In this document: one piece after another, positions 55,385 through 59,312 of the stretch | Layout of the letters: every line of letters begins with the position of its first letter | How positions within the stretch are numbered: the first letter of the stretch is position 1 | Assembly: GCF_019264445.1 (NCBI RefSeq) | Contig: NZ_JAHVAB010000081.1 | Location: 62,001 to 126,000 of the forward strand | From: Hydrogenophaga sp. | GTDB taxonomy: Bacteria; Pseudomonadota; Gammaproteobacteria; Burkholderiales; Burkholderiaceae_C | DNA: 64,000 bases | Direction of reading: 5' to 3' | Translations under genes and position numbers: made by a program | Notes under the pieces: generated by a model | What the model was told of the DNA's origin: nothing | The model's database searches: none | Seen by the model: only the letters and a program-made list of their open reading frames with translations

Positions 55385-57127
55385 TCAGCCCACACCAGGC
55401 GCCAGTTCATGGACCGCCTGGTAGTGGCTGAGGAAGACCTTGCCGCTGAGCGTCTGCAGGAAATGCGTGCGCTTGAGCCGGTCCATTACCGGGCCTTTCA
55501 CCTCTGAAAGATGCAGGCAGATGCCGGCGTCGTGCAGGCGCCGGTCGATCGCTTCCAGGCTTTCCAGTGCACTGGCGTCGATATCGTTGATGGCCGAGCA
55601 CTGCAGCACCACATGTTTGAGCCCGGGGTGTGTGGCCACGGCGCTGTTCACACGGTCTTCCAGGGCGCGTGAGTTGGCAAAGTAAAGGCTCTCGTCCACA
55701 CGAAGGCCCAGCACGTCGGGCGTGGTGAGCACAGCGTGCCGCTCGACGTTGCGAAAGTGCTGCGTGCCTGGCACCAGGCCCACTTCGGCCATGTGCGGGC
55801 GGCTGGTGCGAAACAGGTGGAGCGCCAGCGACACGCCCACGCCCACCACCAGGCCCGCCTCCACCCCCACACCCAGCGTGGTGAGCAGGGTGGCCAGCAC
55901 GGCCATGAAGTCTGGCTTCGACACCGTCCACGTCTTGCGAAAGATGCTGAAGTCCACCAGCGACAGCACGGCCACCACGATGGTGGCGGCCAGGGTGGCC
56001 TGTGGCAGGTAGAACAGCGCTGGCGTGAGAAACAGCGAGGCCAGCAAGATGCCGCCCGCGGTGAACACCCCCGCAGCCGGCGTTTGCGCGCCCGCATCGA
56101 AGTTCACCACCGAACGCGCGAAGCCACCCGTGACCGGAAACCCGCCCGTGAAGGCTGCGCCCAGGTTGCTCGCGCCCAGGGCCACGAGCTCCTGGTCGGG
56201 GTCGATGCGCTGGCGCCGTTTGGCTGCCAGCGTCTGGCCGACCGACACCGACTCCACAAAGCCCACCACGCTGATGAGCAGCGCGGGCACCAGCAGCGAC
56301 TGCCAGAGCGACAGGTCCCACAGCGGCAGCGTGAAGGGCGGCAGGCCTTGGGGCACCGTGCCCACGATCTTCACGCCCTGCTGCTGCCATTGCAGGGCCC
56401 AGGTCAGCAGGGCGGTGACACCGATCGCGGCAATCGGCCCTGTCTTGGCCAGCAGGTCGGCCGCGCGGGCGGGCAGGCCGGCGCGCACCAGCAGGGGCTT
56501 GAGGCCGCTGCGCACCCAGAAGAGAAACGCCAGGCTGGCCAGGCCCACCAGCGCGGTGAGCGCGTGCACGTGCGGCAGCTGCGCCAGCAGCGAACGAAAC
56601 AGCTCGACGAAGTTGTGCCCTTCGGCTTTGACGCCCAGCAAGGTCTTGAGCTGGCTGGCCGCAATCAGCAGGCCCGACGCGGTGATGAAACCCGAGATGA
56701 CCGGGTGGCTAAGGAAGTTGGCGAGGAACCCCAGCCGCAACACACCCATCAGCAGCAGCATCGCGCCCGACAGAAACGCCAGCGTGATGGCCACGGTCCA
56801 GTAAGCCTGCGAGCCCGCCACCGCATGCTCGCCAATGGCCGCCGCCGTCATGAGCGAGACCACCGCCACCGGGCCCACGGCAAGCACCCGGCTGGAGCCC
56901 AGCACCGCGTACAGCAACAGGGGCGCCACGCTCGCGTACAGCCCGACCTCGGGCGGCAGGCCGGCAAGCATCGCGTACGCCAGGCTCTGCGGGATCAGCA
57001 TGACCGTGACGATGAGCGCGGCCACCCCGTCGCTCATGAGCGTGTCGCGCTGGTACCCGCGTGCCCATGCCAGCACGGGCAGCGAGAGCCGCCAGCGGGT
57101 GAGCGGGCCAGACGGTGCGGCGTTCAT
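55385..57127 (-). CDS. SulP-family anion permease with STAS domain
   Basis: 580 aa. Ten or more hydrophobic segments (about 25-420) with MLIPQSLAYAMLAGLPPEVGLYAS, the SulP signature, and a C-terminal STAS domain (about 440-560; HVVLQCSAINDIDASALESLEAIDRRL). SulP proteins carry sulfate, bicarbonate or dicarboxylates. The gene lies 10 bp after a YeeE/YedE gene and appears to end the ArsR-YedE-YedE-SulP operon, so sulfate or thiosulfate is a reasonable guess. Confidence 0.92.
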   Translation of the reverse strand: MNAAPSGPLTRWRLSLPVLAWARGYQRDTLMSDGVAALIVTVMLIPQSLAYAMLAGLPPEVGLYASVAPLLLYAVLGSSRVLAVGPVAVVSLMTAAAIGEHAVAGSQAYWTVAITLAFLSGAMLLLMGVLRLGFLANFLSHPVISGFITASGLLIAASQLKTLLGVKAEGHNFVELFRSLLAQLPHVHALTALVGLASLAFLFWVRSGLKPLLVRAGLPARAADLLAKTGPIAAIGVTALLTWALQWQQQGVKIVGTVPQGLPPFTLPLWDLSLWQSLLVPALLISVVGFVESVSVGQTLAAKRRQRIDPDQELVALGASNLGAAFTGGFPVTGGFARSVVNFDAGAQTPAAGVFTAGGILLASLFLTPALFYLPQATLAATIVVAVLSLVDFSIFRKTWTVSKPDFMAVLATLLTTLGVGVEAGLVVGVGVSLALHLFRTSRPHMAEVGLVPGTQHFRNVERHAVLTTPDVLGLRVDESLYFANSRALEDRVNSAVATHPGLKHVVLQCSAINDIDASALESLEAIDRRLHDAGICLHLSEVKGPVMDRLKRTHFLQTLSGKVFLSHYQAVHELAPGVG

Positions 57128-57137
57128 GTGAGGTCTT

Positions 57138-57572
57138 TCAGCCGGCAGAGTGACGACGGCTCGTGCGGCGCTCGGCCCATTCGTACACCGCCATGCCGAC
57201 CACCATGGCCGCGACGAACACGGCGGCCTTCACCTCCCCGGAGGCCATCGACACGATGCCCGGTCCCGGGCAGAAGCCGGCCAGGCCCCAGCCTGCGCCG
57301 AAGGTCAGGCCACCGAGCACCAGGCGCCGGTCGATCTGCGTGGCCTTGGGCAGGTGCAGCGCACCGCCCAGAAAGTTGGTGGTGCGCTTGCGGGCCAGTG
57401 CGAAGGCAAAGAAGCCCACCGCGATGGCGCCGCCCATGACGAACGCGAGAGACGGGTCCCACGTGCCAAAGAGGTCGAGGAAGCCGAGCACCTTGCCCGG
57501 GTCGGTCATGCCGGAGAGCAGCAGGCCCAGGCCGAAGAGCAGGCCCACGAAAAATTCTGTGATGCGGTGCAT
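57138..57572 (-). CDS. YeeE/YedE (DUF6691-type) membrane protein
   Basis: 144 aa, four helices, with the paired motifs GLLLSGMTDPGKVLGFLDLFGTWDP and WGLAGFCPGPGIVSM including the conserved Cys (about 110). It is half of a split YeeE/YedE-type sulfur transporter (PmpB-like), thought to move sulfide, thiosulfate or persulfide sulfur. ATG at 57572; the upstream track extension overlaps the preceding gene. Its partner half lies 11 bp upstream. Confidence 0.9.
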   Translation of the reverse strand: MHRITEFFVGLLFGLGLLLSGMTDPGKVLGFLDLFGTWDPSLAFVMGGAIAVGFFAFALARKRTTNFLGGALHLPKATQIDRRLVLGGLTFGAGWGLAGFCPGPGIVSMASGEVKAAVFVAAMVVGMAVYEWAERRTSRRHSAG

Positions 57573-57583
57573 GGTGGGGTTCC

Positions 57584-58021
57584 TCAGAGCAGGTGGCGGA
57601 TCACGAAAACCATGGCGAAGCCCGCGCCCATGAAGGCGAGGGTGGCCACGAGCGAGCGCGGCGACAGGCGCGAGAGCCCGCACACGCCGTGGCCGCTGGT
57701 GCAGCCCGAGCCGTAGCGCGTGCCCAGCCCGACGAGCAGGCCCGCGGCCACGATGGCGCCCAACCCGGCGTCAATGCGCGGTGCCTGCACGAAGCCCGCT
57801 GGCGCCAGCAGACCGAACACCAGCGGTGCGGCCAGCATGCCCAGCAGAAAGGCCACGCGCCAGCCGGCGTCGCCCGCGCGGGGTGGCAGCAGCCCACCCA
57901 GAATGCCGCTGATGCCCAGCACGCGTCCATTCAGAAGAATGAACAAGGCCGATGCGACACCCAACAGAATGCCGCCCGCCAGAGAGGCCCAAGGGGTGAA
58001 GTTCGCCCAATCGATCGTCAT
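57584..58021 (-). CDS. YeeE/YedE family membrane protein (PmpA-like half)
   Basis: 145 aa, four helices, motifs GGILLGVASALFILLNGRVLGISGI and GTRYGSGCTSGHGVCGLSRLSPRS with conserved cysteines (about 108 and 114) that carry sulfur in this family. It starts in an ATGA overlap with the ArsR regulator and precedes the second half. The pair resembles pmpAB/yeeE genes found in BigR regulons. Confidence 0.92.
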   Translation of the reverse strand: MTIDWANFTPWASLAGGILLGVASALFILLNGRVLGISGILGGLLPPRAGDAGWRVAFLLGMLAAPLVFGLLAPAGFVQAPRIDAGLGAIVAAGLLVGLGTRYGSGCTSGHGVCGLSRLSPRSLVATLAFMGAGFAMVFVIRHLL

Positions 58022-58344
58022 GACTTTCTCCGTTTCTTGCCGCAAAACTGGGCGTACAGCACCTGCATCACCGCCAGCGCTTGCGGGCTGTCGAGCAGGT
58101 AGTAAATGTTTTTGCCGTCGCGCCGCGTGGTCACGAGCGCCTCTTCGCGCAACACCGTGAGTTGCTGCGACAGCGTGGGCTGAACGATGCCCAACAGCGC
58201 TTCGAGTTCGCCCACGCGGTATTCGCCCTGGGAGAGTTGGCACAGGATGAGCAGGCGGTCCGGGTTGGACAGCACCTTCATCAGCCGGCAGGCCTCGGCG
58301 GCGGCAGCCTGCATGTCGTCGAGATCCAGTGTCTCCTTGTTCAT
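58018..58344 (-). CDS. bigR: BigR/SqrR-like ArsR persulfide-sensing repressor
   Basis: 108 aa winged helix (about 20-95; VGELEALLGIVQPTLSQQLTVLREEALV). Two cysteines stand at 35 (LLILCQLSQGE) and 101 (AQFCGKK), 66 residues apart, the same spacing as the reactive pair of SqrR/BigR as I recall it (Cys41/Cys107); in those proteins reactive sulfur links the two and releases DNA. It heads the minus-strand sulfur operon and faces the persulfide-dioxygenase-like gene across a palindrome with overlapping promoters. Symbol by resemblance and context. Confidence 0.88.
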   Translation of the reverse strand: MNKETLDLDDMQAAAAEACRLMKVLSNPDRLLILCQLSQGEYRVGELEALLGIVQPTLSQQLTVLREEALVTTRRDGKNIYYLLDSPQALAVMQVLYAQFCGKKRRKS

Positions 58345-58374: not shown

Positions 58375-58403
58375 ATTCTATTGACTAACAATATATAAGT
58401 CAA
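58375..58403 (-). promoter_or_regulatory. Promoter of the bigR-like operon
   Basis: Minus strand: TTGACT (58403-58398), 17-bp spacer, TAGAAT (58380-58375). An excellent sigma70 promoter whose -35 is one arm of the palindrome 58381-58403. Confidence 0.75.
58381..58403. promoter_or_regulatory. Palindromic operator shared by two divergent promoters
   Basis: TTGACT-N11-AGTCAA with an AT-rich centre (AACAATATATA). BigR-type repressors bind AT-rich palindromes. Each arm is also the -35 hexamer of one of the two opposed promoters, so one bound dimer would shut both. Confidence 0.75.
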
Positions 58404-58409
58404 TAAACT
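58381..58409 (+). promoter_or_regulatory. Promoter of the persulfide-dioxygenase-like gene
   Basis: Plus strand: TTGACT (58381-58386), 17-bp spacer, TAAACT (58404-58409), 28 bp before the ATG. It shares its spacer and -35 region with the opposed promoter. Confidence 0.7.
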
Positions 58410-58436
58410 ATTTTGAACTTAATTGAAGGAGTTGCC

Positions 58437-59312
58437 ATGAAGCCAGACACCATCGCCCCGCAAGTCCACGGCCTCTTTGACCCCGCCACCTGGACCGTCA
58501 CCTATGTCGTGCACAACGGGGCGGGCAGCGCTTGCGCCATCATCGACCCGGTGCTCGACTACGACCCCAAGGCGGGGCGCACGGGCCACACCTCGGCCGA
58601 CAAGGTGATCGACTACGTGCAGTCAAACGGGCTGCGGGTGGCGTGGATCCTGGAGACCCATGCGCATGCCGATCACCTTTCCGCCGCGCCGTACCTCAAG
58701 GCCCGGCTCGGGGGGCGCCTGGCAATTGGCAGCCACATCACCGCGGTGCAGAAGGTGTTCAAGGGCATCTTCAACCTGGAGCCCGGTTTCAAACCCGATG
58801 GCTCGCAGTTCGACCACCTGTTCAAGGATGGGGAGACCTTCGCGGTGGGCGAGCTCGCAGGCGAAGTGCTGTACGTGCCTGGGCACACGCCGGCCTGTGT
58901 GGCCTACCGCATCGGCGACGCCGTGTTCGTGGGCGACACCCTGTTCATGCCCGATGTGGGCACCGCGCGCTGTGACTTTCCCGGCGGTGACGCGAAAACG
59001 CTCTATGCCTCCACGCGCAAGCTGCTGAGCCTGCCGCCGCAGACGCGGCTGTTCATGTGCCACGATTACCCGCCCGGCGGCCGCGCCGTGCGGTTCGAGA
59101 CCACCGTGGCCGAGCAGCGTGCCCACAACATCCACGTGCACGACGGGGTGAGCGAGGAGGCCTTCGTGGCCATGCGCACCCAGCGCGACGCCACGCTGGA
59201 GATGCCGGTGCTGATCCTGCCGTCCGTGCAGATCAACATCCGCGCGGGCCAGCTGCCGCCGGCGGAAGACAACGGCACGACCTACCTCAAGATCCCGGTG
59301 AACGCGGTGTGA
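58437..59312 (+). CDS. blh: Blh/ETHE1-like metallo-beta-lactamase-fold persulfide dioxygenase
   Basis: 291 aa. Metal motif THAHADHLSAA with His75, His77, Asp79, His80; then GHTPACVAY and FVGDTLFMPDVGTARCDFPGG, the latter typical of the ETHE1/Blh group, and MCHDYPPGGR. Enzymes of this group oxidise glutathione persulfide to sulfite. No rhodanese domain is attached. AAGGAG precedes the ATG at 58437. Divergent from the bigR-like gene and presumably repressed by it until sulfide or persulfide appears. Symbol by resemblance. Confidence 0.9.
   Translation: MKPDTIAPQVHGLFDPATWTVTYVVHNGAGSACAIIDPVLDYDPKAGRTGHTSADKVIDYVQSNGLRVAWILETHAHADHLSAAPYLKARLGGRLAIGSHITAVQKVFKGIFNLEPGFKPDGSQFDHLFKDGETFAVGELAGEVLYVPGHTPACVAYRIGDAVFVGDTLFMPDVGTARCDFPGGDAKTLYASTRKLLSLPPQTRLFMCHDYPPGGRAVRFETTVAEQRAHNIHVHDGVSEEAFVAMRTQRDATLEMPVLILPSVQINIRAGQLPPAEDNGTTYLKIPVNAV

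Follow-up and report, generated by a model that had tools for sequence, protein, structure and literature searches.

Between a repressor gene and a divergently oriented dioxygenase gene of Hydrogenophaga sp., two promoters appear to occupy one short palindrome. This raises the questions of how both promoters can be accommodated on the same stretch of DNA, and which constraint, transcription or repressor binding, has kept the symmetry. The window analyzed here is the whole stretch of 64,000 nucleotides, in which the site, belonging to neither strand in particular, covers positions 58375-58409 with its centre at 58392.

Geometry of the double promoter and its flanking genes

The site is a near-palindromic, symmetric double promoter of 35 bp with the letters ATTCTA TTGACT AACAATATATA AGTCAA TAAACT, and the first-pass annotation had given its positions and letters exactly. 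The dioxygenase-side promoter on the plus strand consists of the -35 box TTGACT (58381-58386), which is the left arm of the palindrome, and the -10 box TAAACT (58404-58409), and its transcription start is predicted from the spacing at about 58416. On the minus strand, the arsR-side promoter uses the right arm as its -35 box TTGACT (58398-58403), followed by the -10 box TAGAAT (58375-58380) and a start placed in the same way at about 58368. The spacer is 17 bp for either promoter. This bears out the earlier claim of two σ70-type promoters on opposite strands, with both -35 boxes being the arms of one palindrome. The description of these promoters as face-to-face was wrong, as they are divergent and fully superimposed, with transcripts leaving outward from predicted starts about 48 bp apart. 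That each spacer is the other's holds approximately: each 17-bp spacer is composed of the common AT-rich 11-bp core AACAATATATA (58387-58397, within both spacers) and the -35 box of the opposite promoter, and each -35 box immediately adjoins the opposite -10 box. Twelve of the 17 mirror pairs match in the site of the window, compared to 17 of 17 in five relatives, in which the 35-bp site is palindromic throughout except for its central base. Both promoter cores lie inside the same 35 bp, and judged from the size of the polymerase footprint two polymerases would exclude one another. This is the property of overlapping divergent promoters, and it supports the proposal that only one polymerase binds at a time.

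The arsR gene (58018-58344, minus strand) encodes a BigR-like repressor of 108 amino acids and is preceded by the ribosome site AAGGAA (58355-58350). The protein matches Pfam HTH_5, and its top structure match is the Xylella BigR 3pqj (91 bits, residues 9-105), so that it has a winged helix related to the solved BigR. Its residues Cys35 and Cys101 align with both cysteines of 3pqj and are near-invariant among the relatives. The presence of both sensor cysteines of the BigR/SqrR type supports the earlier label "bigR-like", and this wording was preferred to BigR because the score against the NCBIfam BigR equivalog NF040642 is 107 bits, below the cut-off of 155 bits. A gene for a YeeE-type sulfur transporter half (57584-58021, minus strand) likely belongs to the arsR operon, since its ATG overlaps the arsR stop codon (ATGA). 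It is followed on the same strand by a YedE-type/DUF6691 transporter half (57138-57572) after a gap of 11 bp and by a SulP/STAS anion permease (55385-57127) after a gap of 10 bp, the latter being the probable end of the operon.

On the other side, a gene on the plus strand (58437-59312, ribosome site AAGGAG at 58426-58431) encodes a single-domain persulfide dioxygenase of the PDO2/ETHE1 type with 291 amino acids. Ribosome sites and start codons are thus close downstream of both promoters. The label "blh" given before was loose: the persulfide dioxygenase is there, and the DUF442 half of Blh is missing. Its match to NF040641 covers only profile positions 141-422 (414 bits versus a cut-off of 625) and its best structure matches are single-domain enzymes, and an assignment as Blh, a fusion of DUF442 sulfurtransferase and dioxygenase, was rejected. 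At the start of the dioxygenase transcript, before the ribosome site, a stretch AACTTAATT.AA (58410-58425) is conserved in most relatives; nothing like it was found when the arsR side was compared across them.

Rarity of the site and its conservation among relatives

The palindrome TTGACT-N11-AGTCAA occurs once in the window against 0 expected and is, without mismatch, present at one site in the 4.43-Mb genome, where two further versions with one mismatch both lack the AT-rich context. Promoters were scored with σ70 consensus weights, textbook approximations which serve as a yardstick. By this measure the two promoters hold ranks 1 and 2 among the 127,944 sites with 17-bp spacing on both strands of the window (67% GC). 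Taken as a superimposed pair they score 16.0, whereas the next best pair in the window scores 4.2, and 200 Markov-simulated windows gave 7.0 at most.

Orthologs were collected from the genus and from a set of 80 named loci, Burkholderiales with few exceptions, giving 90 distinct intergenic regions in a protein-first sample that is biased toward close relatives. The double promoter is kept in about 100 relatives, mostly Comamonadaceae, usually as TATTGACA-N11-TGTCAATA. Nearly all sampled loci with a divergent dioxygenase gene have the same 35-bp layout, with TTGACA being usual on both strands, and two of them (L085 and L102) carry the consensus TTGACA-17-TATAAT in both directions. In the 82 loci found by protein, positions 1, 2, 4, and 6 of the -10 boxes (TA.A.T) are essentially invariant on both sides while positions 3 and 5 vary; of the -35 boxes TTGAC is mostly kept and position 6 varies, and the spacer is 17 bp. 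Judged from these alignments, the free and fixed positions of both boxes follow the tolerance pattern of σ70, which a repressor operator would have no particular reason to show. The mean strengths of the two sides are similar among the relatives (18.6 and 19.1, with 22.1 as the maximum). More distant orthologs (50-60% identity) mostly have other layouts, and in L140 and L141 the dioxygenase gene is present, yet the -35 box on its side is missing.

A scan by pattern only, which required TTGAC and TA...T on both strands, with the distances held constant, and used no protein input, found a single site in each of 22 genomes out of 401 from the family, and all 22 sites are located between arsR and the dioxygenase gene. 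Two further matches in 398 phylum genomes, the first outside the family but within its order, the second outside the order but within its class, are also located at arsR/dioxygenase junctions. The reversed control gave zero matches, and no other gene pair with this geometry was found among the 24 matches from the 401 family and 398 phylum genomes.

Five loci of the Hydrogenophaga group lack the dioxygenase gene (L005, L007, L018, L020, and L023; neighbouring genes were checked for L005 and L018), perhaps due to two independent losses. In these loci the -35 box of the dioxygenase side is eroded to TTGAAT, TTGAAC, CCGACG, TCGGCC, and TCGGCA, whereas the arsR-side -35 box is TTGACA or one base off. 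Close orthologs from an even sample of the family carry an intact site in 12 of 14 cases where a divergent dioxygenase gene is present and in none of the five where it is absent (Fisher p = 0.002, ignoring kinship). The loci lacking the gene are few, some are relatives of others, and they include one near a contig end (L145) and one partial match (L155). Because the dioxygenase-side arm decays when the gene is absent, the arms seem, from the sequences compared, to be retained mainly as -35 boxes. The dioxygenase match is also missing in L004 and L092, but the start region of the gene is present and the site is kept, as expected after recent loss or assembly breaks.

The opposite of the pattern in the loci without dioxygenase was observed in eight loci from Comamonadaceae bins, several of which are labelled Comamonas sp. 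lk (L060, L070, L077, L078, L089, L097, L104, and L110). Their -10 boxes are kept and perfectly mirrored (AGTATA...TATACT), and their -35 arms have drifted (TTGATT, TTTATA).

Symmetry and the possible position of the repressor

The strongest centre of symmetry is position 58392. On the protein tree, correlated change of mirror positions was slightly above chance, with most pairs not significant and P = 0.04 for the mirror pair at position 3 of the -10 boxes; mirror covariation was dropped as a proof of a dimer operator for this reason. Since the mirror positions change together barely above chance, the symmetry can be explained mostly by the two promoter constraints. Weaker off-centre palindromes are found at site positions 10.5 and 25.5, which is 7.5 bp to either side of the centre. 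From the positions, an ArsR dimer would cover parts of both promoters at any of these places, whether central or off-centre. A BigR operator sequence was sought for comparison in the open-licence PMC literature, and the accessible parts of these sources contained none.

The off-centre palindromes allow a reading in which both promoters are real and the operator is offset, so that a dimer would sit on one -35 box (10.5 or 25.5), or two dimers would bind, and the two directions would be closed unequally. Secondary palindromes of the form ACAATATAT-N6-ATATATTGT at these positions, which switch sides with the orientation of the core, are in line with this, and so is a comparable element carried by some distant relatives, L171 among them. 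However, in many loci, including the window, the central palindrome is far stronger than the offset one, and we consider such an arrangement unlikely.

We regard it as quite improbable that the palindrome is an ArsR operator only, with the promoter likeness of both sides or of one being incidental and the symmetry being kept for the dimer. ArsR proteins do bind palindromes, the central position is the most symmetric one, and some arm changes are matched, with TTGACT on both sides in the window and in L108, TTTACA on both sides in L142, and TTGAAA on both sides in L161. Against this, it is exactly the positions of -10 and -35 boxes that are free or fixed, at an exact spacing of 17 bp on both sides, the dioxygenase-side arm is lost together with its gene although arsR remains, and the correlated change of mirror positions is weak.

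A membership in the shared -10 class of bidirectional promoters, known from E. coli and other prokaryotes, is very improbable. In this class, too, transcription in either direction comes from one short pseudo-symmetric sequence, which has no room for a second polymerase (PMC12825309). The geometry contradicts it, save for the case that transcription really starts from an AT-rich -10 box at the centre: the two -10 boxes at 58375-58380 and 58404-58409 occupy opposite ends of the 35 bp, the predicted starts are too far apart, and the membership was rejected on these grounds. A mobile or structural repeat which mimics promoters, like a small inverted-repeat element or a terminator-like hairpin, would account for the inverted repeat and for an AT-rich core found in both orientations, but can practically be dismissed, as it would need many dispersed copies, whereas each genome has a single site, invariably located at the arsR/dioxygenase junction and upstream of both start codons, and the genome of the window contains no further copy.

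Two loci (L014 and L017) contain an additional overlapping palindrome TTGACAAACAATATAT...ATATATTGTTTGTCAA, which is displaced toward arsR. Judged from its sequence, it is possibly a second or shifted operator.

Proposed regulation and comparison with known systems

We favour, with good though not full confidence, an arrangement of two symmetrically superimposed σ70 promoters that is gated by ArsR and released by persulfide as a single on/off gate for both directions; from this analysis, control by one persulfide-released ArsR dimer is likely. The polymerase would load in either orientation, never in both at once, and would produce leftward the transcript of the arsR-yeeE-yedE-sulP operon and rightward that of the persulfide dioxygenase gene, presumably also in vivo. 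The reduced ArsR dimer would block both directions from the AT-rich symmetric DNA, until persulfide links Cys35 and Cys101 and releases it, as the characterized BigR/SqrR relatives suggest. Repressor, transporters and detoxifying enzyme would then be induced jointly, at an output ratio set by how often the polymerase chooses each direction, and autorepression would shut the gate again. The term "switch" in the first-pass annotation is overstated, because one gate that closes both sides is a shared on/off gate and cannot be a toggle. Overlapping promoters behave as real switches if they are of unequal strength and respond differently to the regulator (PMC4207663). This case is not what the 35-bp site shows.

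Overlapping divergent promoters closed by one regulator are known from Tn10 tetR/tetA, reportedly described by Bertrand et al. in 1983, a work to which PMC11686294 refers, and from E. coli bioA/bioB. The tet region contains two operators, and the bio promoters face each other across their operator. To our knowledge, neither of them is a single palindrome made by its two promoters. The site described here resembles both in having overlapping promoters, probably under one regulator, and differs from both in being a palindrome which the promoters themselves form.

In the open-licence PMC literature, the closest published geometry found is that of the promoters Pc and Pr of the Bacillus subtilis plasmid pLS20, where the -10 box of either promoter coincides with the -35 box of its partner (PMC4207663). 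In both systems, two divergent promoters share a single segment of DNA with room for one polymerase at a time, and one of the genes encodes the regulator. The pLS20 promoters are unequal, and their regulator is a tetramer that loops the DNA and acts differently on each (PMC4207663). In the site of the window, by contrast, neighbouring boxes touch and do not coincide, each promoter comes close to the consensus, the entire 35 bp form a palindrome, and sites for DNA looping are not known. With the shared -10 promoters the site has in common the pseudo-symmetric DNA and a polymerase binding in two alternative orientations. Those promoters have one common -10 box, and the distance between their starts is typically 10, 18, or 23 bp (PMC12825309). 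Here the -10 box is not shared, the starts lie about 48 bp from each other, beyond the range of 10-23 bp, and consensus-like -35 boxes are present on both sides. As far as the open-licence PMC literature goes, we regard the site as an undescribed form of overlapping divergent promoters.

The gene content resembles the BigR/SqrR regulon of Xylella, Agrobacterium, and Acinetobacter, with an ArsR dithiol pair, a persulfide dioxygenase and YeeE/YedE partners. Regulator and Blh, the latter with its DUF442 half, share one operon in Xylella (PMC5823870, PMC7315123), and the BigR of Acinetobacter, with the sensor pair C34/C100, represses the yeeE-yedE-pdo2 operon from a bigR gene located elsewhere (PMC7315123). 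The arrangement in the window differs, as the dioxygenase gene is divergent from the regulator gene across one 35-bp site.

Five E. coli bidirectional promoters tested by Warman, Grainger and colleagues had low basal activity, and polymerase competition mattered only when transcription rose (PMC12825309). Because that work predicts competition at strong transcription, and near-consensus promoters should supply this strength, a pair conserved on the same 35 bp should show strong polymerase competition that is directly measurable. The roughly 100 natural variants, which include decayed arms, unequal -10 boxes and flipped cores, form a set of ready-made mutants, and the site itself is a concrete portable part for near-equal expression in two directions under one repressor.

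The 11-bp core is present in opposite orientations in closely related loci (L086/L106, L054/L073, L135/L136, and L017/L074). Among close pairs differing by at least 4 bases, 16% match within 1 base after one core is reverse-complemented, versus 2.6% in the column-shuffled control, and in L054/L073 the core is flipped while the unequal -10 boxes stay in place. The compared sequences suggest that the core has been inverted repeatedly between the arms. A wider reading, which we put forward tentatively and hold to be somewhat short of probable, sees a distinct σ70 bidirectional class in which each promoter makes up one half of a 35-bp palindrome, with a single gene pair as its fixed place in Burkholderiales and beyond, and which provides co-induction at a constant ratio through polymerase choice. 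The repeated inversion of the core would be harmless in such a class, since the 35-bp element is symmetric.

In the more distant locus L171, overlapping divergent promoters, read by eye, have another offset, with the -35 boxes outside and the -10 boxes nearer the centre, and surround the sequence ACAATATAT-N6-ATATATTGT. Judged from this locus, the layout may have been rearranged on more than one occasion.
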